Shown here: positions 172-29,300 of the stretch, one piece after another
How positions within the stretch are numbered: position 1 is the stretch's first letter
Layout of the letters: each line of letters starts with the position of its first letter
IMG/VR virus record: IMGVR_UViG_3300036884_000037
Span: 1-32,553 of that record
Strand: one strand, 5' to 3'
Origin: a virus
DNA: 32,553 nt
The notes under the pieces: model-generated
The model's input: the letters and a program-made list of their open reading frames with translations, nothing else
The model's database searches: none
Told to the model about the DNA's origin: nothing
Program-made: the position numbers and the translations under genes

Positions 172-564
172 TTAGACCCCCATCATTTCGAGCAATTCAG
201 TAAGGGTACTACAGTGTTTAACTCGTGGTAAGTAATGGAATATATTTTCCTTTGGACCTAGCACCACAATCAATTTTCCCGTACCCAGGGCGTAGCCAAA
301 TTCCACATGCCTTCCTCCACGAACTCCTGCAATCAATGGATCAATAGAGAACATAATTACCACATCCGCTGCATCAATATCTTTGATATCTTGTGCCGCA
401 AATTTGGCCAATTCTTCGGTCGGGATCTGATCCATGCTAATGCCTGGGGGCCAATGTTCTTCCAGCCAGGACGATGTAACTTCAACGTCTCTGGCGCGAA
501 GAATTGTGGCAACACACTGCATATCTCCTTTTTGGGAATACCGAGCAGCTAAGTATGCTTTCAT
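172..564 (-). CDS. Nucleoside 2-deoxyribosyltransferase-like protein
   Basis: This 130-residue protein has the compact Rossmann-like fold signature of the nucleoside 2-deoxyribosyltransferase family. It starts MKAYLAARYS (beta strand and glycine-free turn), has the acidic stretch AAQDIKDIDAADVVI near residues 57-70, and GGRHVEFGYALGTGK near 83-97. Glu88 in that motif matches the catalytic nucleophile position of the family. Members cleave or exchange the N-glycosidic bond of deoxynucleosides or deoxynucleotides. In a phage this would alter nucleotide pools or feed salvage, which is inference. The ATG overlaps the TGA of... rather, is overlapped by the upstream primase stop (ATGA), implying translational coupling. 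The exact substrate cannot be read from sequence. Confidence 0.75.
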   Translation of the reverse strand: MKAYLAARYSQKGDMQCVATILRARDVEVTSSWLEEHWPPGISMDQIPTEELAKFAAQDIKDIDAADVVIMFSIDPLIAGVRGGRHVEFGYALGTGKLIVVLGPKENIFHYLPRVKHCSTLTELLEMMGV

Positions 565-3410
565 ACTATTTTCCTTTCTTCGCCGTCTTCTTTCTTTTCG
601 GCGTTGTAAATTAAGGACATAGCAACGTGTCCGAGTTCCGGCACTGTAAGATCAAATTCCAAACAGGGCTGGGCAATTGTTGGTAAGTATTCGACCCCGC
701 CACCCAGGGCTTTACGTGCATTGGCTTTAAGTAATACCGGACGCGGTTTAATATTACTCAACACTTCAGTAAATTGTTTCATAGATATATATGATTTTCT
801 GAAATGGTCTCGGAGTACGTCCCGAGAAATAAAGAGTCGCTTGCTATCAGTTTCCAGCCGCCCAATAATTGCGCCTTTGATCTCACGATAGACAAATACA
901 TAAGGTCTGCCGGAAGGATCTTTCCGTTTATCACATACCAGAATGTTTCCTGCATAATGTTCCACGAATGCAGCCAGAGCATCTATAGGAGCCACAACCT
1001 GTTCACATTTAGAACCGCGCATATCATGTACAGCGTCAACGAACCAGTCCATTATAGGAGCAATCTCAAAACGAATCAGCCCAAGTTTCTTGGCAATCAA
1101 TCCGCCATAGATAGCTACGGCTCCAAGCGCCGCCCAGAATCTTTCCTCAGAGGCGTTACCTAGTTTTTGCTCCAGTAGATCCATGATCTGATCCAGTTTG
1201 CTCTGATGTTCTTCAACATGAGCAACGAGGTACTGGATGTATTCAACACCAGCATGACCGCAATTTAGCATAACCGCGCGGTACATTTGTTTTGCAATGG
1301 CAGCATCCATTTCCTCAGGGAAAATCTCAAATACACGATTGATTTCCGCAGAAGCATCAGCTTTGGCTTGCCCCAGGCGCTCAACAAGTGAATGGTTTGA
1401 CGATGTAGTTATGACCGTGTTCCATGCATTGATATTGGATTTCTCTACCGCCTTCTGAGTTAGTCGGGCTTTATCCCGTCCCTGTGTAACCTTATAAACA
1501 AAGTCGCTTAGTGCCAGGGGTTCGATATTACTTGTCTCGTCAATGTACATTGGCAATGAGCCAAAGATCCCGAGACGTGAGATCAATGCATTCGGGGTAT
1601 CATCCTTACGACAAGACAGCTTCTCTGGCCGACCATATAGGGACAGAATAAAAGTACCCATTAAGGTTTTCCCAATTCCCGACTTCCCCACAATGGAAAG
1701 AACCGCTCCAGCATAACCAGTAAATTTCATCAGGGGCGCACCGAAGCCACCGGCGAGAAGGGAGAATGCGTGGACAATCATTTCGTCCTGATTCAGAAAC
1801 TCTGTTGCTTGTACCCATGATTCTTTATCTCCTATGCATTTAAACCCCTTAACTAATTCAGGAATATTCTTTGCAAGACCGGCTCCATGTACTTCTTCAC
1901 CTGGGCCATATATATGTTCGCCGAGGATGAACTGTAGGTCATCAACTCGGTCTTCGTCCTCATTACGCCATCCCATTTGACAGAATAGTTTTGACATCTT
2001 CTGCTGGGCTCTTAACCGCATTACATAATTTTCCACATAGGCCCCCATTAGAACTTGTTCCCTTTTCCCTATAACTTGAACATGATGATCGTGAAGTTCG
2101 ATCATGAATGCTTTGGTATCTTTTGGTAAAGATGATCTAATAACGACATCCTTTTCCCCTTCATGTGGCATCATATGTCTAATCGTTATAGCCTCATAAC
2201 CCAGACTGTCGTCATAGGCCACGCGTTCAACCCATAGATCCCAAGGATAAATCATTGTAGAGCCGTCATCATCCTCATAGAAGATCCCATCTTTCGTGCG
2301 TTTAAAGCCTTTGGGGGTCCATTTGCCCTCTTCTGACATCATCTTCCCATACCCAAGAGCAATAGGGGAATGCAGCTTCTTACTATGAGAACAGCCAATG
2401 CAGCCTTGTGGATTAACAGTGCCAAACATATGACACGTAGTAGGAGCTGTCTGAATCTGCTGGTCTTTTAGCTCAGTTGCCTCATATGAATATTCTGGAT
2501 GACCACTAGACCAGAGATGTTGTATCTGGGGATACTCCTCTGTGTAATGCAACAAGCAAAGGGCTGCATACCAGAATGGTTCAGGTACGTTCCCTTTTGT
2601 ATCCCTGATGATCCTCATTTGGTTACATCGTTCTGCAATCTCTAACGCGCTACTTGGTGGTCGGTCAGTGATCCCACTTAGGAATTCGTCGTACTCTGTT
2701 TGTTTCTTTGGCGGTTTAAGCACCGTGGTTTCTATCTTGCGTGCTTTTGCCGCAGTCCCGAGCAAATGAGTAAATGTAACAAATGATATGGGGTCGGCAT
2801 CTTTGATAATGGATACCGGTTTATCAGTTCCGTTTTTCCTGTTGGTTGAACCAGGAGGGCGTAAAATACTGGCTGAATCAGAAGTCCTTGCTGGGTCTGC
2901 CTCAAATTCATAGGCAGTAAGCGTTGATTTTAATAACTGAGCTGTACCCTTCCATTGAGCTTCAGAAAGGTCTTCCTCCATAAACCAATATGCATATAGC
3001 CCGTTGCCAGATCTAACAACACAGGGGAATGGTAGACCTGTTGCGCGTACCATTTCGGATATAGCATTACACCCTGCGGCCTGATTGGCATATGGTTTCT
3101 CAGGACCACAATCTATATCAAGCCAGAAAGCTTTTATTGCGTGTACATTTTCCTGCGATCTGCGTTTCTTGCGCTGGTTCTTCGGGGCATCAGCAGGCAG
3201 GGCATTGTTATATGCCATAGCGGCATCAATTTTTTCAGTAGAATAAGTAGCCTGAGCTAAATAAACTGTATGCCCCTGAGCGTCAAGGGCTATTGCATTT
3301 GAAATTGCGTCATCTAGTGTCTCGAAAAATCTATGCCGAATCCCTTTCGGCCCAACATTGGCCACGCATATTAGACCTTGCGAGGGAAATAACTTTTCAA
3401 AAAAATTCAT
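561..3410 (-). CDS. Primase-polymerase / superfamily 3-like helicase fusion
   Basis: A 949-residue replication protein. The N-terminal part resembles archaeo-eukaryotic (RepB/prim-pol type) primases: WLDID at 96-100 gives the metal-binding DxD, SGNGLYAYW at 134-142 is the second motif, and ILRPPGSTNRK at 182-192 the third. A Cys cluster (C326, C338, C341, with His nearby) follows and could bind zinc. The C-terminal half is a DUF927-like ATPase with Walker A GKSGIGKT at 575-582 and Walker B-like LPMYIDE at 619-625. It probably primes and unwinds at the phage origin. The start has GGAG six bases upstream and a TTGACA promoter at 3443-3470. An oddity is that the second primase motif has Tyr139 where related proteins usually have His. 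Confidence 0.85.
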   Translation of the reverse strand: MNFFEKLFPSQGLICVANVGPKGIRHRFFETLDDAISNAIALDAQGHTVYLAQATYSTEKIDAAMAYNNALPADAPKNQRKKRRSQENVHAIKAFWLDIDCGPEKPYANQAAGCNAISEMVRATGLPFPCVVRSGNGLYAYWFMEEDLSEAQWKGTAQLLKSTLTAYEFEADPARTSDSASILRPPGSTNRKNGTDKPVSIIKDADPISFVTFTHLLGTAAKARKIETTVLKPPKKQTEYDEFLSGITDRPPSSALEIAERCNQMRIIRDTKGNVPEPFWYAALCLLHYTEEYPQIQHLWSSGHPEYSYEATELKDQQIQTAPTTCHMFGTVNPQGCIGCSHSKKLHSPIALGYGKMMSEEGKWTPKGFKRTKDGIFYEDDDGSTMIYPWDLWVERVAYDDSLGYEAITIRHMMPHEGEKDVVIRSSLPKDTKAFMIELHDHHVQVIGKREQVLMGAYVENYVMRLRAQQKMSKLFCQMGWRNEDEDRVDDLQFILGEHIYGPGEEVHGAGLAKNIPELVKGFKCIGDKESWVQATEFLNQDEMIVHAFSLLAGGFGAPLMKFTGYAGAVLSIVGKSGIGKTLMGTFILSLYGRPEKLSCRKDDTPNALISRLGIFGSLPMYIDETSNIEPLALSDFVYKVTQGRDKARLTQKAVEKSNINAWNTVITTSSNHSLVERLGQAKADASAEINRVFEIFPEEMDAAIAKQMYRAVMLNCGHAGVEYIQYLVAHVEEHQSKLDQIMDLLEQKLGNASEERFWAALGAVAIYGGLIAKKLGLIRFEIAPIMDWFVDAVHDMRGSKCEQVVAPIDALAAFVEHYAGNILVCDKRKDPSGRPYVFVYREIKGAIIGRLETDSKRLFISRDVLRDHFRKSYISMKQFTEVLSNIKPRPVLLKANARKALGGGVEYLPTIAQPCLEFDLTVPELGHVAMSLIYNAEKKEDGEERKIV

Positions 3411-3473: not shown

Positions 3474-3740
3474 TTATATTATTTTCGCTATATCGAAGAT
3501 AGCCTTGATCCTATCTTCAGGAGTCAGTCCTTTGGGTAGCGGGAGTAATCCCTGTTTAATTCCGGTAATTAATTTTTTGATCTGATGCATTGCAAACTCA
3601 GCCTGTATCTGAACACGAGGTTCCCGTCCTTGTCTCCAATGATGTAATGTATTCCGTGTCACCCGCATAAGCTGGGCGGCTTCTTCATAGGTAATCCCTG
3701 AAGCTTTTATTGTTTGCTCTATAACTTTAAGATCGAGCAT
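3474..3740 (-). CDS. Small helix-turn-helix DNA-binding protein
   Basis: An 88-residue protein with a helix-turn-helix in ITYEEAAQLMRVTRNTLHHW (about residues 16-35), followed by a basic and helical tail. The start is placed at MLDLKV because GGAGG lies seven bases upstream (GGAGGATACAATG). A longer reading from an upstream ATG has no such site. HTH proteins of this size are typical phage transcription regulators. It sits between the ssDNA-binding protein gene and the promoter of the primase gene, so it may regulate that promoter, which is inference. It ends in TAA just before the -35 box. Confidence 0.75.
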   Translation of the reverse strand: MLDLKVIEQTIKASGITYEEAAQLMRVTRNTLHHWRQGREPRVQIQAEFAMHQIKKLITGIKQGLLPLPKGLTPEDRIKAIFDIAKII

Positions 3741-3796
3741 TGTATCCTCCAAAAACTCCGCTACGGGGATTCCCATAGCGGAGCCATTCTAGTTAC

Positions 3797-4825
3797 TTAC
3801 AGTCCCAGTTTTGCAGATAGATCGGCATCTGAGAATCCGCCAAGTTGTCCCGCGGGAGCTTGATTTCCAGCAAAACCACCAAAGGCGACTGTTGCGTCAG
3901 GAGCGGTTTCTACATGGGCCTCTTCTGCTTTGGCAGCAGGTTTGATCTCACGTACTTTACGATTGTTCTTTGGCGGTGCCTGGGCATTCGGGGTACTAAT
4001 GTCTGCACCGAAAGATCCAAACCCAGGAGCGGCATTTTCAGGAACCTGTTCCTGGACTGGAGCCTGCTGGACTGGAGCCTGCTGGACTGGAGCCGGAAGC
4101 GCAGCAGCGTTTGGAACTTTAATAATGTCCCGTACTTCTACGCTGTCGATCAGTTCATATACATATGACAGAACTGTTTCATCCGCGAGTCCACCGAACG
4201 TGAAGGTAAGTTTCGGATAAGAAACTTTGATGTCGAAGCTGACCATGGTAATTGCTTCAGCCATATGGATACCACGGCTACGCAAACTTGCAACGTATTT
4301 GGCAAAGTTACCGAGGGATGCAGGCGGAATCTTGAACTTAAACGCACCCTGGTCTGATCCTGGGGTTACAGCGGTTATCTTGATATCACGGCATGCTTTA
4401 CCATCAGACGGCTCACCGGTAGCGGTTTTACCTGTACCAAACTGGTTCTTGGCACACCCAGCACATGATGCAGCACATTTATACTCGACCGAAGGATCAG
4501 GTACAATGCCATCCCGCGAGAAACAATCAGGTTTTGTCGGCTCATCGCCTGGGGTATATGCACCGTTGTAAAATACCTTGTCAAACGGACCCTTAGCTCG
4601 AAGGATAATGAGGCCAATTGACGTGCGGTCAATAGCATGATCCTCGCCATCTTTTGACACGATAAACCGCGTACCACTCAGTTTAATCTCAGGAGGAGCA
4701 CCGGTAAAAAGATTTGCAAGAGCATCTTCTTCCATGGTATCCAAGATTGAGCCACACTGCGATCTCAGTGCAAGTACGTGAGCAGGAAGCGTTGCGGGTA
4801 AGTTGTTGAATTGGTCGTCAGACAT
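3797..4825 (-). CDS. Putative ssDNA-binding protein with Cys cluster and flexible tail
   Basis: A 342-residue protein with a folded N-terminal part of about 235 residues that carries a four-Cys motif (CAASCAGC near 116-123 and a further Cys in KACRD) likely to bind zinc. It is followed by a low-complexity Ala/Pro/Gln-rich tail with tandem PVQQA units and a short Gly/Phe/acidic end (GGFSDADLSAKLGL). This architecture of core plus disordered tail with a hydrophobic-acidic tip resembles phage ssDNA-binding proteins, and the position beside primase and helicase genes fits. The assignment rests on layout and context, not on a recognised fold. An AAAGGAG-type site lies before the ATG. Confidence 0.5.
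   Translation of the reverse strand: MSDDQFNNLPATLPAHVLALRSQCGSILDTMEEDALANLFTGAPPEIKLSGTRFIVSKDGEDHAIDRTSIGLIILRAKGPFDKVFYNGAYTPGDEPTKPDCFSRDGIVPDPSVEYKCAASCAGCAKNQFGTGKTATGEPSDGKACRDIKITAVTPGSDQGAFKFKIPPASLGNFAKYVASLRSRGIHMAEAITMVSFDIKVSYPKLTFTFGGLADETVLSYVYELIDSVEVRDIIKVPNAAALPAPVQQAPVQQAPVQEQVPENAAPGFGSFGADISTPNAQAPPKNNRKVREIKPAAKAEEAHVETAPDATVAFGGFAGNQAPAGQLGGFSDADLSAKLGL
4052..4094 (-). repeat. 15-bp tandem repeat coding the PVQQA tail units
   Basis: Two full copies of CTGGACTGGAGCCTG (4052-4066 and 4067-4081) and a partial third (4082-4094) lie head to tail inside the tail of the putative ssDNA-binding protein. Being 15 bp, copy-number change keeps the reading frame. Confidence 0.85.
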
Positions 4826-5721: not shown

Positions 5722-7275
5722 TTAATGATCTTTTATTAAATCCAAAACTATCTGTTGCCATGTACATTTTCCGTTCAATACATCATACGCTTTCCACTCT
5801 TCAGGAGCCGCAGCAATATATGCGATGTCCATTTTCACAGTCTGACCACCGCCATCAATACGGGCATTCGCCTGTTCATGTAGTTCATTCTTTCCAACAA
5901 TAGGCGCATACCAAATTATCAATGATGCTGCTGTCAGTTCAAGGCCATGGGCCATACAACCAGGGTGGGCCAAAATGATATGCGGATTTTCGTCGTTCTG
6001 GAATGCACTGAATATCTTATTCCGTTTTCCCGCAGCCACTCCACCGTCTACGACTTCGACTGTCCATTTCTTTCTGAGTTCTCGGGCAAGAGCATCAAGT
6101 ACCCCTGTAAATGGAACAAAGACCAGCACCTTTTCCTCGTTCTCTTCGATCAATTCTTCCAGAACTTTTAAACGCGGTCCAAAGTCCATCTCAGCAATGT
6201 CGCCATTTGCTCCATATACCACGCCACAAGCAATCTGAATAAGTTTTGATACCATTACCGCAGCATTGACCGCTGTAACCTGCGTGTCGCCAATAGAGGT
6301 CAAGGCCTGCTTTTTCATTTGCTCGTAATGTTGTTTCTGTGTGGCTGATAATTCCGCTTGACGATAAACGATATTTGGTTCCATGTCTGTACATACGTCA
6401 CGAGTAAACCTGATCGACGGATAAAGGATCTTGGCCACGGTATCCGCAGCATCATGCCGAGGCAACCATTTATATGGGCCAAACTGTTGCATTGTTAACT
6501 CACGGAATTTAGTGAACGATCCATTCACGTTCTCTGGTTTAACTAATTTGGCTTGTCCATACCCATCGGTAGGAGCGTTTGGGGTTGGTGTTCCGGTCAT
6601 ACCCCATATCCAATGATCTGGTCGAAGATACGTCTTCATATACCCATAGCGTGTCAACTTTTCTTTGCCAGTACGCATCTGGGAATTTCGGTACGTCGAA
6701 ACCTCGTCAATTATTATGTGGTCTATATCAGGTCGATTCCGTAGTTCGTCGTGAATGACCTCGATCCCATCATGGTTAATAACGTAGTAATCCGCCTCGG
6801 AGTTCAAGAGATCACGCCGTTTCTGTGCGCTACCATAAAGAACTTTGAATTTTGAATGTGGGGAATCAATGAACAATGTATCCCCCCATACTCGTTCGAG
6901 TGTGGATAAGGGCGCGGCGATCAAAGTCTTCTTAATCATTTTCTTCTTGCGGAGAAAGTCCGCTGCCCAAATAACGCTATTCGTTTTCCCTGTGCGCATA
7001 GCATTCAGTATAAACGCCCGTTTATTTAACGTGGCAAACGCCGCAGTCTCAACCTGATACCACCTCGGAGTACGCCCTGGGCGAATGGGCCAATTGTAAT
7101 CGAATCGTATAGGACTGGGTGCATCATATCCCATGTTACGCAGAAGTAGGGTATTCTCTATCGTCGCAGGTACAGCCCCGAAAGAATCGGCGTACTTGTA
7201 TACAGGGAAAATAGACATCACATACTCTAACGCTTGGAATACATAGAACCCATTAATCAAACGTACAGGGTACAT
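5722..7275 (-). CDS. SNF2-like superfamily 2 DNA helicase
   Basis: A 517-residue superfamily 2 ATPase. RWYQVETAAF at 71-80 holds the Q-motif glutamine, NAMRTGKT at 91-98 is Walker A, IIIDEVS at 187-193 is motif II (DEVS rather than DEAH), and WGMTGTPTPN at 224-233 is motif III. The second RecA lobe ends with QANARIDGGGQT, a variant of the SNF2 motif VI. Phage members of this group are usually linked to VRR-NUC nucleases and act in recombination or replication. A VRR-NUC gene lies about 1.2 kb upstream in the same operon. GAGGAAC precedes the ATG. Confidence 0.88.
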   Translation of the reverse strand: MYPVRLINGFYVFQALEYVMSIFPVYKYADSFGAVPATIENTLLLRNMGYDAPSPIRFDYNWPIRPGRTPRWYQVETAAFATLNKRAFILNAMRTGKTNSVIWAADFLRKKKMIKKTLIAAPLSTLERVWGDTLFIDSPHSKFKVLYGSAQKRRDLLNSEADYYVINHDGIEVIHDELRNRPDIDHIIIDEVSTYRNSQMRTGKEKLTRYGYMKTYLRPDHWIWGMTGTPTPNAPTDGYGQAKLVKPENVNGSFTKFRELTMQQFGPYKWLPRHDAADTVAKILYPSIRFTRDVCTDMEPNIVYRQAELSATQKQHYEQMKKQALTSIGDTQVTAVNAAVMVSKLIQIACGVVYGANGDIAEMDFGPRLKVLEELIEENEEKVLVFVPFTGVLDALARELRKKWTVEVVDGGVAAGKRNKIFSAFQNDENPHIILAHPGCMAHGLELTAASLIIWYAPIVGKNELHEQANARIDGGGQTVKMDIAYIAAAPEEWKAYDVLNGKCTWQQIVLDLIKDH

Positions 7276-23437: not shown

Positions 23438-24043
23438 CTAATTATATTCAATGGCAACGGCCATTCCATTTATGTTTTCAAACTCCAGTTCCAAGCACAA
23501 CTGCTGGTCGAGTGGTATATTAATCGGCCTTCGAAAAGACACTTCGCACCGGCGACCCCTGCAATAACCTGCATATTCCTCTTGCGCACCCTGGATGGTA
23601 GTAATCTCAAGTCTCTGGGTTCCTGGTTTCTGTAAAATTTTAGCCGTGTTATTGCCAAGTCCCTTGTCTCCGATGATGATAGCCGTATGCAATAAATCAT
23701 AGTTGCCTGTCGGCTGGACCGGTTCGGCATCTACCCAAAAATTTGAGGCATATAATCCACGGTCCTCATCACGATAATGTCTAAAGCTCAGATCCCGATA
23801 TACAACCACGTCGCCCTTGCGCGGTACTGATATCTCAATCGAACGTGTATCAAGGAGCTGCTCTATATCGTCCTGGTCATACCAAGTGAGATATTTATCC
23901 CAGCCAAGCGCATATGCTGTAAAACCCCAACAATTGAACGACTTCCTGATATAGAACTTAGGGTCCAATGCATTCTGAATAATATTGTCTTCTTTCAATT
24001 CATTCAAAATAGCTTCAATCTTGGCAGGGGCTATTGTTTCCAT
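23438..24043 (-). CDS. Papain-fold (NlpC/P60- or CHAP-like) cysteine peptidase candidate
   Basis: A 201-residue protein. SFNCWGFTAYALGW (35-48) looks like the catalytic Cys38 helix of NlpC/P60-type enzymes. PRKGDVVVYRD (74-84) is the usual strand after it, and DLLHTAIIIGD (116-126) provides His119. The C-terminal 60 residues add a beta-rich extension. Such enzymes cut peptidoglycan stems or amides, so it could act in lysis, but no cell-wall-binding domain is seen. Its promoter lies at 24110-24137 and its leader is AAAGGAGTTAAGCATG. The final assignment needs structural comparison. Confidence 0.5.
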   Translation of the reverse strand: METIAPAKIEAILNELKEDNIIQNALDPKFYIRKSFNCWGFTAYALGWDKYLTWYDQDDIEQLLDTRSIEISVPRKGDVVVYRDLSFRHYRDEDRGLYASNFWVDAEPVQPTGNYDLLHTAIIIGDKGLGNNTAKILQKPGTQRLEITTIQGAQEEYAGYCRGRRCEVSFRRPINIPLDQQLCLELEFENINGMAVAIEYN

Positions 24044-24109
24044 GCTTAACTCCTTTGGTTTATATGCCTTGTATGAAGGCGTGTTAATTTTTCTTTTAAT
24101 GTTATACTA

Positions 24110-24137
24110 AATATACGCCCATTACTCGGGAAGTCAA
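24110..24137 (-). promoter_or_regulatory. Sigma70-type promoter for the cysteine peptidase-like gene
   Basis: On the minus strand TTGACT (24137-24132), 16 bases, TATATT (24115-24110), about 65 bases upstream of the ATG. It faces left and lies right beside the inverted-repeat island, whose first copy is only 12 bases upstream of the -35. Confidence 0.6.
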
Positions 24138-24148
24138 GAAGTTTTTTG

Positions 24149-24702
24149 TGTAATCTGAGACAAGTACTGTTCCGTCAATTTTGTCTTAGATTACCGTGCA
24201 GAGGTGCGTTCATTAGAATTGCTGGACACTGGTATTAAAGTTTTCCGTACCATAAAAGAAAATGGGTGGGTATGTTTTCTTTCTTTACATAAACGCTTTA
24301 ATTTGATAGTCCAGGTAGAAAACGGACGAAAAATTGTTTATATAATGTGAGACTGACATACCATATCTAGTTTTTATCAACACTATATGTTGTGCTTTTT
24401 ATGCAATGTGAGACAATAGTTGTCTCAGATTACAGTGCGATTTAGATTAAATGTATCAGACGATACAGAAAATATTGTATTAGCAAAAGTTGACTGTATT
24501 AGTGTAGTTCTTGTAACTCGGTATTCTTGTTGTCTTTTTTCGTGTATTGTCTCAGATTGTACATATAGTTGATGTAAGGTTCCAAAACAATAGAGGCCTA
24601 AAATCGCATTCTTCTGTAATTCTGAGACAATGCTGGACGGTTTTTCCGAACATCTTTTTATGCGTTACATCAAAAACTATGCAAAAGTGTCTCAGATTTA
24701 CA
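24149..24702. repeat. Eight-copy inverted-repeat array in a gene-free island
   Basis: A 15-16 bp motif related to TGTAATCTGAGACAA occurs eight times. Forward copies are at 24149-24163, 24341-24355, 24402-24416 and 24615-24630. Reverse copies (TTGTCTCAGATTACA type) are at 24181-24195, 24420-24434, 24547-24561 and 24688-24702. The order (+ - + + - - + -) makes them pair as nested or adjacent hairpins, e.g. 24402-24434 with a three-base loop. The core TCT(G/C)AGA is itself near-palindromic. Spacers are unequal and unique, so it is not a CRISPR array. The island 24044-25178 otherwise has no supportable gene. Origin iterons, operator cluster or structured RNA are all possible. Confidence 0.75.
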
Positions 24703-25097
24703 GAAGATCGTCAAATAGAGCGTCTATAATTCCTTTGTTACAAATTTATATAGCCATCTTTTTATATGATACATTGGATATATGAGTTATTTCAACAAGA
24801 TGGACTATATTGGAAAGCGGACCCCCTCGGTAAAACAGAACAAAAAAACACGTTTACTTGTCAATTTTTGCTTAACTCCACTCCACTTTGCATCATAAGC
24901 ATATAACTCTTTTTTTCTTCTTAACGTCCAAGTATGGGATTTTCAAAGAACTATTTTGGTCTGGAAATTATTGCATTAACTATTACTATATTTTTCAGCG
25001 ATACACCACTTCCAAAATATGTAATGATATTATATACTTTGAGCGTGATATATTATAACAGTCTCTAATCATATAAACAAAACGGTTAACTTCTGTT

Positions 25098-25150
25098 AAT
25101 GCATCGTGCGATACGTTTCAGCATATTATATGTATATCGCACGATGCATT
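25098..25150. repeat. Perfect 16-bp inverted repeat with 21-base loop
   Basis: AATGCATCGTGCGATA (25098-25113) and its exact reverse complement (25135-25150) flank a 21-base AT-rich loop. Each arm holds the near-palindrome ATCGTGCGAT. It stands 29 bases beyond the stop of the leftward gene at 25179. No T-run follows on the left, so it may be an mRNA-end-protecting hairpin, a pair of protein sites, or an origin element. Between 24703 and 25097 I see only AT-rich sequence. Confidence 0.7.
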
Positions 25151-25178
25151 CATTATACCCCACTAAGGTTGTGTTTTT

Positions 25179-25361
25179 CTAATTAACCTGTCGCGGTTCA
25201 CAGATACCCTGTCGAATTAGGTCTGAGGCGGTTCGGCCGTAAGATCCTTGCAACTGATATGCAAGGCCACTGTCAATAAGTGCCTGAAATAGTTCAACAA
25301 CTTCAACATGCTCCAGTTCGCCTGATTCGTATGCCATAATTTGACCTACAAGATCTCGCAT
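25179..25361 (-). CDS. Small conserved phage protein (DUF7417-like)
   Basis: A 60-residue protein: MRDLVGQIMAYESGELEHVE, LFQALIDSGLAYQLQGSYGR, TASDLIRQGIC. The MAYESGEL and LQGSYGRTA motifs are those of a very common small phage family, which I believe is catalogued as DUF7417, with no known function. AAAGGAGACGAGA precedes the ATG. It is the last gene before the repeat island on the leftward transcript. Confidence 0.8.
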   Translation of the reverse strand: MRDLVGQIMAYESGELEHVEVVELFQALIDSGLAYQLQGSYGRTASDLIRQGICEPRQVN

Positions 25362-25373
25362 TCTCGTCTCCTT

Positions 25374-25544
25374 TTAGCTTTCATCTGATACCGTGTACCC
25401 TAACTGTCTTAAACTCTGGGCAACAAGTTTCGCTTCTTTTAAGCTCAGATTGCCTGTCACGTAACAGAAGGGATAGTCTGAGCGAATATAGTACCCTACA
25501 TCGTCCATTTTTATTGAGTATGTCATTTTCGGTAATACTATCAT
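25374..25544 (-). CDS. 56-residue hypothetical protein
   Basis: Start at the second ATG (25544), because AAGGAG lies six bases before it while the ATG at 25550 touches the site. The protein reads MIVLPKMTYSIKMDDVGYYI, FCYVTGNLSLKEAKLVAQSL and ends LGYTVSDES, a compact alpha/beta peptide. The SLKEAKLVAQSLRQLGY end is common in small phage proteins. The role is unknown. Confidence 0.65.
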   Translation of the reverse strand: MIVLPKMTYSIKMDDVGYYIRSDYPFCYVTGNLSLKEAKLVAQSLRQLGYTVSDES

Positions 25545-25556
25545 CCGCATCTCCTT

Positions 25557-25820
25557 TTAATGTTTCATCTCATTGCAGATGAAGGAGCTGTCACACCCGA
25601 TATTCTGTATCAGGCAACATTCCTGATTGTTGATATGATTTATAAGCTCTACGCAAGCCAACACGGTCTTCGGGTCGGCGTCTACTATCTCGATTATCAA
25701 GCTCTTCTCTTCTTGCCCCTTCCAGTAGCCTGTAGCGTGTATTATCGTAAAGCTGTCAAACAGTTCCGACACGATTGTTTCGGTTCCGATAATGTCTTCG
25801 GTTAATATTCTTGTTAGCAT
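25557..25820 (-). CDS. Conserved small phage protein of unknown function
   Basis: An 87-residue protein: SELFDSFTIIHATGYWKGQE, SLIIEIVDADPKTVLACVEL, INHINNQECCLIQNIGCD. The FTIIHATGYWKG...EKSLIIEI layout recalls a small ferredoxin-fold protein family of phages and bacteria (with YWKG-x4-E core) that lacks a role. AAAAAGGAGATACGATC precedes the ATG. Confidence 0.7.
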   Translation of the reverse strand: MLTRILTEDIIGTETIVSELFDSFTIIHATGYWKGQEEKSLIIEIVDADPKTVLACVELINHINNQECCLIQNIGCDSSFICNEMKH

Positions 25821-25835
25821 GATCGTATCTCCTTT

Positions 25836-26213
25836 TTAATAGTTTATTCCATAATAGCAATCAATATTACTGGCAAGGTTAAGCATATCGTATTCAGTAG
25901 GATTTTCAAAATCAGGTTTACAGTTTCCATAATCGCAACAAGAATCAATATTGGCCTTATTTTGTTCATACAATTCAAGCAAATCATTAAATGTATATTG
26001 AACGTCAAGAATATATGCGTCTGTTTTTCTTAACTGAGGCGGCAACAACTTACCATTATCATTCCATGCGAGACAACCACTTGTTGCTGTAAATCTTACA
26101 TAACAATCTTTATCAAGCTTGCCATTTTTAACAAGCTTTTTACTGTTAAACTCCATCATTAAATATCCTTCTGCACGACAAACACTTAAATTTATATCAA
26201 TTCCAATTTTCAT
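25836..26213 (-). CDS. Hypothetical phage protein
   Basis: A 125-residue protein: MKIGIDINLSVCRAEGYLMM start, FTATSGCLAWNDNGKLLPPQ middle, acidic Cys-containing end (SCCDYGNCKPDF, SNIDCYYGINY). AT-rich codon use like its neighbours. AAAAGGAGTAAGTT precedes the ATG. No family was recognised. Confidence 0.65.
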   Translation of the reverse strand: MKIGIDINLSVCRAEGYLMMEFNSKKLVKNGKLDKDCYVRFTATSGCLAWNDNGKLLPPQLRKTDAYILDVQYTFNDLLELYEQNKANIDSCCDYGNCKPDFENPTEYDMLNLASNIDCYYGINY

Positions 26214-26254
26214 AACTTACTCCTTTTAAATGAATTCTGACTCACATTTGATTG

Positions 26255-26386
26255 TTATACTTCGATTGCTTGCCATTTATCCCAGTCTATCAAGGCCAGT
26301 TCGCCATTAGTGCAAAGGTTATGAAATGCATATGCACTGAATTCAAACGAACATTGATTCCGATATGTACAATATGAACATTTCAT
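26255..26386 (-). CDS. 43-residue Cys-containing mini-protein
   Basis: ATG at 26386 overlaps the upstream TGA (ATGA) and AAAGGAG lies in the preceding codons. It begins MKCSYCTYRNQCSFEFSAYA and continues NLCTNGELALIDWDK. CxxC plus two further Cys fits one zinc site. No family was recognised. Confidence 0.6.
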   Translation of the reverse strand: MKCSYCTYRNQCSFEFSAYAFHNLCTNGELALIDWDKWQAIEV

Positions 26387-26487
26387 CTTGAGGCTCCTTT
26401 GATTGTTGTACTGAAACTATTGAGCGCGTCCTGATACTCAGCTTCGAGTGCTGCATATTCTTTATATAATGTTTCAAGCGTTTTCAT
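26383..26487 (-). CDS. 34-residue helical peptide, first gene of the leftward arm
   Basis: ATG at 26487, preceded by AAAAGGAAAACGAAA and by a promoter at 26509-26536. It reads MKTLETLYKEYAALEAEYQD and ends in TIKGASR, a charged amphipathic helix. It is the first leftward gene after the divergent control region and is coupled by ATGA to the next. Confidence 0.55.
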   Translation of the reverse strand: MKTLETLYKEYAALEAEYQDALNSFSTTIKGASR

Positions 26488-26508
26488 TTTCGTTTTCCTT
26501 TTGACTAA

Positions 26509-26575
26509 AGCATACCACTAGTTGATTGAATGTCAACAAAGAGTATTTGACATCCTTTTTTGTAAGAAGTAACGT
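26509..26575. promoter_or_regulatory. Back-to-back divergent promoters between the two arms
   Basis: Leftward: TTGACA (26536-26531), 16 bases, TATGCT (26514-26509). Rightward: TTGACA (26547-26552), 17 bases, TAACGT (26570-26575). The two -35 boxes are 10 bases apart and form an inverted repeat. This lies between the leftward genes and the rightward PhoH gene in the 26488-26841 gap. Confidence 0.55.
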
Positions 26576-26587
26576 GCGCGGGCGCTC

Positions 26588-26620
26588 GGGGGTCTGGGGG
26601 GTGAGGCATAGGAGGGGGGG
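26588..26620 (+). other. G-run tract, possible G-quadruplex or end-related site
   Basis: Runs of five G (26588-26592), six G (26596-26601) and seven G (26614-26620) with short loops, preceded by GTGCGCGGGCGCTC. This GC-rich block stands in an AT-rich non-coding gap. On a rightward transcript it would form a G-rich leader. A cos- or pac-related role is another possibility. No gene is seen around it. Confidence 0.5.
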
Positions 26621-26761
26621 TGAGTGAATGATTCGCCCCAGTACGCGAAACCCTAGTATTTTAACCATGTAACGCAAGATACAAGAATACTTGATTTCCT
26701 TACACAAAATTTTTCCCCTTTTTAATATCTTCAATGTATCGCAGGTTACATATTATAACTA

Positions 26762-26790
26762 TTGACTTCTCCTGATGACTTTGATATCTT
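26762..26790 (+). promoter_or_regulatory. Sigma70-type promoter for the PhoH gene
   Basis: TTGACT (26762-26767), 17 bases, TATCTT (26785-26790), about 50 bases upstream of the PhoH ATG, with GAAAGGAGCAAAAC as ribosome site. It faces right and is the nearest promoter to the rightward arm. Confidence 0.65.
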
Positions 26791-26841
26791 ATAGTCACAT
26801 AGGCAGACATCGTCCACCCCCTTCTACGAAAGGAGCAAAAC

Positions 26842-28209
26842 ATGACCGTAAACTACGTCCTAGATACCAACATCCTACTCCACGATGCCCAAGCAGTAAC
26901 AGCCTTTGGCCCCAATAATGTCCTTATCCCCATTGTAGTAATCGAAGAACTCGACACTTTTAAGAAAGAAATGAACGATTTAGGCCGCAATGCAAGGGCG
27001 TTTTCTCGTTTTATCGACTCCCTACGGGCCAAAGGAAGCCTGATTGACGGTGTGAAACTCAATTCAGAAGGCGGAAGACTGCGTGTAATACGATGCACCG
27101 CAGCAGCATTGGAAGAAATGCCCGATGACATGGATCATAAAATGGCAGATACCAGGATTTTGGCAGCAGCACTCGAAGTTATGAGGGCGAATCCTGGTGA
27201 TACAACCATTTTATGTACTCGGGACACCAATCTTCGGATCAAAGCAGACATTGTTGGTGTACAGGCAGAGACATATGACACAAATAAGGTATCAGTTGAT
27301 GATCTTTATACCGGAATAGCGAAGCTACCGGCTGGTTGTAGCCCATTTGACTATCCAGAAGGCACCTTTGCCCCAAATGAGTTCGTGATCGACGCAGAGG
27401 GCGGGATATTTCGTTACGATGCTGAGTCTCAGTTGGTCTGTGCGGTATCAGATCCAGGTAAAATCTGTGATCTGGAGGCACTAAATGAAGAACAGGTCAT
27501 GGCACTGGATCTTTTATTAGATGATCGGATCAAATTGGTAACTCTGGTAGGAAAAGCAGGAACAGGGAAAACTCTGTTGGCCATAGCAGCCGGACTCAAA
27601 CTCGTGACTGAGAATTTTACCTACCGGAAGATGCTGGTTGGTCGTCCGATAGTCGAGATGGGGAAAGGGATCGGGTTTTTGCCAGGAGATATCAGAGATA
27701 AGCTTGCACCTTATATGCAACCGATATATGATAACGTCGAATTTTTACTTTCAGGGTATCAGGTCGGGTCTTCTCGGATCATGAAACCGCTGGAGCCAAA
27801 AAAGAAGCTCGGGAAGTCGAAAGGGGATATTCCTCCAGAAGATCCCGAGTGCAAAGAGCGCGGGGCGTTCGGGAATGCATACATGGAGTTGATTGCCGCG
27901 GGGATTATGGAGATTGAACCATTGACTTATATCAGGGGGCGGTCCATTCCACAACAGTTCCTCATTATTGACGAAGCACAGAACTTGACACCACATGAGG
28001 TAAAGACTATAATCACTCGTGTTGGTAAAGGAACGAAAATAATTCTGACCGGAGATCCGAATCAGATCGACAATCCATTTTTGGATGCGGCATCGAACGG
28101 ATTGACATATGTGGTTGAACGGTTTAAGGATCAGGCAATCGCTGGTCACATTACATTAACAAAAGGAGAGCGGTCAGAGTTGGCAGAGATCGCATCGAAT
28201 ATTCTGTGA
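26842..28209 (+). CDS. phoH: PhoH-family protein with N-terminal PIN domain
   Basis: A 455-residue two-domain protein. Residues 1-150 are a PIN nuclease domain: VLDTNILLHD (Asp8), VIEELD, DHKMADTRIL and LCTRDTNLRIKA give the acidic cluster. The rest is a PhoH ATPase with Walker A GKAGTGKT (237-244), GRPIVEMGKGIGFLPG, and Walker B FLIIDEAQ (373-380), then TGDPNQID. PIN-PhoH2 proteins act as RNA helicase-nucleases. Phage PhoH roles remain uncertain. An insert (PKKKLGKSKGDI) precedes GAFGNAY. It heads the rightward arm, with its own promoter. Confidence 0.92.
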   Translation: MTVNYVLDTNILLHDAQAVTAFGPNNVLIPIVVIEELDTFKKEMNDLGRNARAFSRFIDSLRAKGSLIDGVKLNSEGGRLRVIRCTAAALEEMPDDMDHKMADTRILAAALEVMRANPGDTTILCTRDTNLRIKADIVGVQAETYDTNKVSVDDLYTGIAKLPAGCSPFDYPEGTFAPNEFVIDAEGGIFRYDAESQLVCAVSDPGKICDLEALNEEQVMALDLLLDDRIKLVTLVGKAGTGKTLLAIAAGLKLVTENFTYRKMLVGRPIVEMGKGIGFLPGDIRDKLAPYMQPIYDNVEFLLSGYQVGSSRIMKPLEPKKKLGKSKGDIPPEDPECKERGAFGNAYMELIAAGIMEIEPLTYIRGRSIPQQFLIIDEAQNLTPHEVKTIITRVGKGTKIILTGDPNQIDNPFLDAASNGLTYVVERFKDQAIAGHITLTKGERSELAEIASNIL

Positions 28210-28772: not shown

Positions 28773-29300
28773 ATGACTAGAGAACTGTTAAGTATGTTCG
28801 AGGAAGAAGAATTTAATAACCTGGAGCCGGAGAAGCCCCCAGTTATTTCTTTGTCTGAGCAGCTCAAGGATGCGCTTACAGGGATAGAAGATGAGGTTAT
28901 AGATGCGTTGACAGTTCGAGATCAGACTCTAGGCGCATGGAACCCCAGGATGGTGTTTGATATTGCTCTTGGAGTAGAGGACGATGAAATTGTCAGGGGG
29001 CGTTATTTATTAGATGAAGACGAATATAGGATGATCCTACAACAGCCAGCCTTTAAAAAGGAAGTGGCTATTTTAGTTAAGGAAATAAGAGAATCAGGGG
29101 TATCGTTTGCGACTAAGGCAAAATTAATCGCAGAGGAAACTCTGACTGATATCTTTAATATTATAACCAGTACCCACGTTGCTGCCAAAGATCGGGTAAC
29201 AGCATGGACTAAGGTAGCAGAATTTGCAGGCTTGACACCCAAGGTTGAGAAAGGGGATAATGGTTTATCACATCAGGTAAACATCCAGATTAATTTATAG
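28773..29300 (+). CDS. Putative terminase small subunit
   Basis: A 175-residue acidic-to-neutral helical protein. The C-terminal part (KEIRESGVSFATKAKLIAEE, AAKDRVTAWTKVAEFAGLTP, ending NIQINL) has the layout of phage terminase small subunits that bind packaging sites: a helical pair, then a short beta end. The N-terminal acidic part (SMFEEEEFNNLEPEKP) is not typical. No large terminase gene is present in the window. There is no good ribosome site before the ATG, and a promoter lies directly upstream. Confidence 0.5.
   Translation: MTRELLSMFEEEEFNNLEPEKPPVISLSEQLKDALTGIEDEVIDALTVRDQTLGAWNPRMVFDIALGVEDDEIVRGRYLLDEDEYRMILQQPAFKKEVAILVKEIRESGVSFATKAKLIAEETLTDIFNIITSTHVAAKDRVTAWTKVAEFAGLTPKVEKGDNGLSHQVNIQINL

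Follow-up and report, generated by a model that had tools for sequence, protein, structure and literature searches.

Arrays of short sites are used by replication initiators in several well-known systems, including the iterons of the lambda ori, alpha/ori of P4 and Rep/ori of the SaPIs. The P4 and SaPI initiators are helicases. The phage described here likewise encodes a primase-helicase with a DUF927 domain, but its array differs from those of lambda, P4 and the SaPIs in that the copies occur in both orientations, are irregularly spaced and are ~20 kb away from the gene for the primase-helicase. The iteron origin of the satellite PLE covaries with the DNA-binding domain of RepA, according to excerpts of two reports (PMC8263062, PMC7145576). 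As these excerpts describe it, the PLE origin (RepA_N iterons) resembles the present array in being noncoding, in having repeated and partly inverted motifs, and in differing in sequence between relatives at the same locus. It differs in having three iterons of ~30 bp, whereas the copies here are ~15 bp long, more numerous and scattered over at least 0.55 kb; the PLE initiator is also known and covarying, whereas here there are candidate binders only. The stoperators of Cluster A mycobacteriophages and the 17-bp palindromic repeats of Cluster O, as excerpted from a further report (PMC4351075), are similar in that many copies of one phage-specific short site are present. Those repeats are spread over the genome; the present motif is confined to one island and changes between phages.

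Repeated sites at origins and operators are an already known kind of element, and what is unusual here is that the motif is exchanged across the family while its place stays fixed. A search of the open-licence literature found no description of this locus. The DNA analysed (the window) is a 32,553-nt stretch of a viral contig, IMG/VR record IMGVR_UViG_3300036884_000037. It contains an array of motif copies upstream of its early operon, and most of the relatives that could be tested have an array of a different motif at the corresponding place. The array probably consists of sites for a DNA-binding protein which is sequence-specific and evolves fast, and these sites are most likely iterons of an origin which overlap early-promoter control; the probability of this reading is put at just under one half (0.47).

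The array and its surroundings in the window

The array lies in a gene-free island of 1135 bp which forms the leader of the leftward early operon. The main features are:

561-3410: primase-helicase with DUF927, about 20 kb from the island
3474-3776: gene for a small XRE-type HTH protein, immediately 5' of the primase-helicase
23438-24043, minus strand: first gene of the leftward early operon, 201 aa, with a weak sub-threshold NlpC/P60 match
24044-25178: gene-free, AT-rich island upstream of the leftward early operon (GC 0.33, contig 0.43)
24110-24137, minus strand: sigma-70-like early leftward promoter, TTGACT-N16-TATATT, just left of c1; consensus match only
24149-24163, plus strand: motif copy c1, TGTAATCTGAGACAA, adjoining the early promoter-like site
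24181-24195, minus strand: motif copy c2
24341-24355, plus strand: motif copy c3, TATAATGTGAGACTG
24402-24416, plus strand: motif copy c4
24420-24434, minus strand: motif copy c5
24452-24467: perfect dyad TGTATCAGACGATACA (TGTAWC-N4-GWTACA), a second motif type within the island
24547-24561, minus strand: motif copy c6
24580-24607, plus strand: 28-bp block TTCCAAAACAATAGAGGCCTAAAATCGC, 86% identical in L031, the closest relative
24610-24645 / 24672-24707: 36-nt imperfect inverted repeat around c7 and c8
24615-24630, plus strand: motif copy c7, in the left arm of that repeat
24688-24702, minus strand: motif copy c8, in its right arm
25059-25073, minus strand: possible ninth copy (c9), TATGATTAGAGACTG, very weak, found through a 34-nt inverted repeat

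Eight motif copies had been described in an earlier note made from the sequence alone, and all eight were located in place. A weight matrix built from them gives the copies 15.7-22.3 bits, and the rest of the 32.5 kb reaches at most 11.8 bits; the high scores are expected by construction, but the gap which separates the copies from the remaining sites is not. The possible ninth copy is absent from the weight-matrix matches of 9 bits or more in the whole window. When the motif is searched as an ungapped 15-mer with up to three mismatches there are five matches in the whole window, all within the island (mean of 100 shuffles 1.28, largest 4). Copies c7 and c8 carry a one-base insertion within TGTAA(n)TCTG. 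The 10-mer AATCTGAGAC occurs eight times in the gap 24044-25178 at one mismatch or fewer. This raw count does not exceed that of shuffles, in which the best AT-rich words reach 8-10 copies; the composition-adjusted score (12.1; the highest of 10 shuffles is 4.6) is the decisive measure, because raw word counts in islands do not beat shuffles.

The claim that the island has no supportable gene was borne out, as the gap contains only ORFs of 60 codons or fewer. The nested inverted order which had been emphasised carries less weight. The orientations (+ - + + - - + -) do nest like brackets; however, so do 14 of the 256 strings of length eight, and the possible ninth copy would break the nesting. 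Direct pairs (five, shuffle mean 0.1) and inverted pairs (five, shuffle mean 0.8) are both in excess in the gap, so inversion itself is not the special feature.

Leftward genes on the left side of the window have replication functions and include the primase-helicase, a helicase, parts of a DNA polymerase and a match to a RecB-type exonuclease. Rightward genes start at 26842 with a PhoH-like protein. The switch between early and late strands is ~2 kb from the island, with a few small leftward genes in between, and the cumulative GC skew of the window turns in this island/strand-switch region. The early promoter is to be taken as only a consensus match, since 23900-26900 contains no more promoter-like sites than chance would give (11 found, 12.6 expected). 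Within the window contig, which is probably half a genome, the copies are limited to one island and face both ways. The genome-wide dispersal and orientation with transcription which characterise stoperators were not found in this contig; what was found is a short site repeated several times within a single noncoding region, as in iteron origins. A search of phages for DNA similarity to 23900-25400 found none.

Replacement of the motif in related phages

Gene order in the closest relative, L031 (contig G001, 61 kb), is that of the window. Identity is 74% for PhoH, 83% for an 87-aa gene, 62% for a 60-aa gene and 41% for the first early gene. The contig looks like a circularly permuted 61-kb genome; matches to the window primase-helicase cross its ends. 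The window therefore probably covers about half of a genome.

The corresponding gap in L031 is 1178 bp long, compared with 1135 bp in the window, and it lacks the window motif. The earlier note had named loss of the motif from relatives as grounds for refutation. Taken literally this is what was observed, since the closest relative lacks the exact motif; but a different motif array stands at the same place, for which reason the functional idea survives. There, TGTAATCTGAGACAA has been rewritten to about TAGTATTYGTAGACATA, which is present in four clear copies and one weak one. The four score 16.9-20.7 bits; the fifth, m2, scores 11.6, which is under background sites of 12.3 and 14.0. By position the five are counterparts of c1, c2, c5, c7 and c8, and orientations agree (+ - - + -), in a pairing which was chosen by the analyst and which leaves c3, c4, c6 and c9 without counterparts. 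Distances from the early -35 are 12-26 bp for c1 and 10-26 bp for m1, 44-58 and 38-54 bp for c2 and m2, and 283-297 and 258-274 bp for c5 and m3. In both phages the coordinates give a distance of 47 bp from the TGTC of the first copy to the -10 downstream of it. The islands have otherwise diverged, apart from the 28-bp block TTCCAAAACAATAGAGGCCTAAAATCGC; c7 follows it by 9 bp and m4 by 8 bp, and c8 and m5 are also at similar distances. The pattern of this block was found in no other IMG/VR contig. A motif change common to several sites points to a trans-acting reader, as a changed protein would select it.

Word-count tests on this relative do not make the TAGTATTYGTAGACATA-type copies stand out and flag another word, ATGTATCGCT, with six copies. 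As direct repeats, the motif copies score 17.0 and 15.6, compared with a shuffle best of 12.8; inverted pairs are not beyond shuffles (15.3 vs 20.2). The pairs c7/c8 and m4/m5 have common letters beyond the motif, which suggests that a hairpin or paired site may matter there.

Wider comparison used a search with the SNF2-type helicase, which gave 428 IMG/VR relatives; the best 80 of 428 were kept, and 25 of these were sampled, favouring close matches and long contigs with no strict rule. Together with L031, the isolate Rollin and the window they make 28 sequences. They cannot be counted as independent: among 12 of the records, mean pairwise identity is 51-86%. When the four top places in each record are considered, an array outside ORFs and contig ends is present in 15 of 28 records and is always in the early leader. 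Orientation is mixed in 13 of the 15, and is single (direct copies) in G006 and G013. The motifs differ from phage to phage. They include CATGTAAAGTT in G018, AATAATCTAAG in G024 and TGCTACCTTTT in Rollin, each with nine copies, and TGTAAGGTTTG in G013 with six. The Rollin record starts within its array, the copies form 25-bp palindromes, and a second repeated word is found in the same island.

Islands were also identified by a TerS-like gene. Of 20 records, 16 have in the longest noncoding gap upstream of that gene an array which none of 60 shuffles equals; of the 23 other gaps, which are mostly shorter, one (G019) gives such a result. Six of the 28 records (G005, G007 and G009-G012) were left out as they have no TerS match, and two (G008 and G017) as the gap is at a contig end. 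Four of the 20 fall short: G003 and Rollin, whose islands are out of reach in this test, G020, whose array is equalled by 3 of 60 shuffles, and L031, where a 98-codon ORF splits the island and 9 of 60 shuffles equal what is left of it. With three copies only, G014 still passes. If the gap taken by the analyst as the island is used, 16 of 18 pass.

Four further isolates were searched over five top places each, with no shuffles. Xp15 has six copies of ATCATATGATA in an annotated gap (771-1678) between divergent genes; no such array is among the top places of RHph_TM3_14A, Effie and MD-2021a, although by eye a few words are repeated in the MD-2021a gap. Effie (L201/L202) and MD-2021a (L205), Acinetobacter phages, have four-site groups built on (A)TCAGAGCGG with alternating orientation in several gaps.

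Other searches returned nothing. The first early gene alone found no relatives, and two scans of genome contigs in search of a host found no relative. PhoH and the 60-aa gene were found in 0 of 25 helicase relatives, an empty result which shows little as it has no known positive.

Origin, early-promoter control and other possible explanations

The earlier note had offered iterons, a cooperative operator or a multi-hairpin RNA as explanations. The comparison favours protein-binding sites, and RNA is less likely as a common feature. Mixed orientations, irregular spacing, rewriting and a single location would all follow if the copies bind a protein. One DNA-binding protein would recognise the sites in either orientation and at variable spacing, and its binding at many sites would be cooperative. 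Once bound, it would open AT-rich DNA at the array and start lytic replication, as initiators do at iterons. Through the promoter-proximal sites c1 and c2, the same protein would also control the early promoter at 24137-24110. Protein and sites would change together, and the motif would be rewritten from phage to phage as a result. The sequence itself establishes the array, its location and its exchange for another array in relatives; binding, cooperativity, initiation of replication, promoter control and co-evolution are inferred.

Origin iterons with early-promoter overlap are ranked first as the most likely explanation, although the data do not decide between origin and operator. In favour of an origin are the presence of one array only, its AT-richness, the position of the skew minimum, the distance of some copies from the promoter, and the precedent of PLE. 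Each of the 19 islands measured has a higher AT content than its own genome; this is weak support for an iteron origin because intergenic DNA is often AT-rich anyway. Of 10 chosen records, treated as circular, 8 have their cumulative GC-skew minimum no more than ~4 kb from the island, but this is confounded, as skew changes with gene direction, and in G026 the maximum is nearer to the island than the minimum.

It is possible, if on balance doubtful, that the array is an operator only. A repressor or activator on the copies would then control the early leftward promoter, perhaps by looping DNA, and would have no role in replication. What favours this is promoter spacing in two phages, since c1 and m1 are equally far from the early promoter-like site despite their different motifs, as well as G015, in which copies overlap the -35-like box of two promoter-like sites (two found, 0.1 expected). 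HTH- or XRE-like genes near several islands also favour it: in G002, G006 and G008 such genes adjoin the island or extend over its edge (the G002 HTH by eye), and a 67-69-aa HTH-like gene, again judged by eye, is near the island in G019, G021 and G026. However, these genes belong to more than one family. Promoter-like sites are few across 18 islands (8 found, 4.5 expected), with no general spacing rule. The copies also extend 0.56 kb upstream of the promoter, and the possible ninth is at 0.93 kb.

A structured, multi-hairpin RNA transcribed from the island is improbable, and a conserved RNA is unlikely as a common feature of the islands. Folding both strands had been proposed as a check, and 24140-24720 does fold better than shuffles on both (z -3.4 and -5.2); but inverted repeats fold on both strands whatever their role. 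In tests on the central 600 nt at most, with 15 shuffles, z is below -2 for at least one strand in 13 of 19 islands, and for both strands in 12. Neither strand falls below this level in G001, G004, G013, G018 or G020, and G015 gives -0.8/-2.0. The direct copies of G006 and G013 also speak against RNA, and Rfam gives no family at gathering score in the window (0 matches). Paired arms were likewise to be sought in relatives. The c7/c8 arms match at 29 of 36 positions and the L031 arms at 14 of 16 plus one G-T pair; the c7/c8 hairpin may be real, as complementarity beyond the motif is kept in both phages. Against RNA, m3 of L031 keeps the full motif without a local partner.

A packaging initiation site (pac/cos-like) bound by the small terminase is very improbable. 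In 14 of 17 genomes compared, no more than 7 kb separate the TerS-like gene (28773-29300 in the window) from the island. However, this gene is 4 kb away in the window, its divergence does not track motif class (permutation p 0.59), and the TerS label comes from position and clustering, with PHROGs and Pfam giving nothing. Least probable of all are nested transposon (MITE) remnants or DNA inversion sites: the nested inverted copies have TGT...ACA-like ends, which we take to resemble transposon ends, and the early protein HTH177 weakly matches a transposase-type HTH, but the L031 counterparts in the same gap carry a different sequence, no integrase or invertase is among the 20 window proteins scanned with PHROGs, and the exact motif occurs in IMG/VR at 25 loci which are judged to be chance because each has one copy.

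Candidate binding proteins and implications

If the array is bound by an initiator or regulator, the first candidate is HTH189, because its HTH helix has changed between the window and L031; that of HTH177 is nearly conserved. HTH177 matches a transposase-type HTH (phrog_157, E 2.8e-4) and sub-threshold HTH_Tnp models. AlphaFold gives a poor model for HTH189 (mean pLDDT 60.8). Both proteins were found in the window and L031 only among 17 genomes searched, so neither can be a family-wide binder.

A screen for co-variation between 18 protein families and two by-eye motif classes in 12 genomes gave no convincing partner; the lowest permutation p was 0.036 in 18 tests. In this coarse screen the XRE protein (p 0.41), the primase-helicase (p 0.30) and the TerS-like protein (p 0.59) found no support as specificity partners. 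The small XRE-type HTH gene is just 5' of the primase-helicase in 26 of the 29 records which have a primase-helicase, and was not found in Rollin, RHph_TM3_14A and G014. By eye, its HTH helix changes little within each branch while the motifs differ. The XRE protein may read the dyad TGTAWC-N4-GWTACA instead of the array motif.

It can be suggested, with some doubt, that this family of ~50-65 kb phages keeps one hypervariable control or origin locus, in which the place is conserved and the motif is rewritten in concert, with similar types recurring in different branches (by eye). If so, the locus would be a specificity determinant (a replicon or immunity type), and the drivers would be parasites, defences or co-infecting relatives which target or titrate a common origin or operator. 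It would also make it simple to locate the origin or region of early control in a phage family which is large, is mostly uncultured and has few annotated isolates. The natural series of rewritten site arrays at one locus could be used to study joint change in protein and site specificity, and would bear on whether origin-targeting parasites or superinfection drive the rewriting.

Several smaller features of the region should be noted. Perfect TGTAWC-N4-GWTACA dyads occur three times in the window, at 24452-24467, 26668-26683 and 26735-26750; at one mismatch or fewer there are five sites (0.39 expected). L031 has such dyads at 5828 (one mismatch) and 5872 (two mismatches). Upstream of PhoH is a rightward promoter-like site (26762-26790); the dyad at 26735 stops 11 bp short of its -35, and this arrangement is recognisable in L031. 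A perfect 16-bp inverted repeat (25098-25113 / 25135-25150) is present directly past the stop of the 60-aa gene; the corresponding spot in L031 has a different inverted repeat of 25 nt (80%) at 3957-4015. The 60-aa protein (25179-25361) is a DUF7417 protein with matches in 163 phage records, 157 of which are Streptomyces phages. The 87-aa protein (25557-25820) has a weak, sub-threshold match to the S-adenosylmethionine lyase family.
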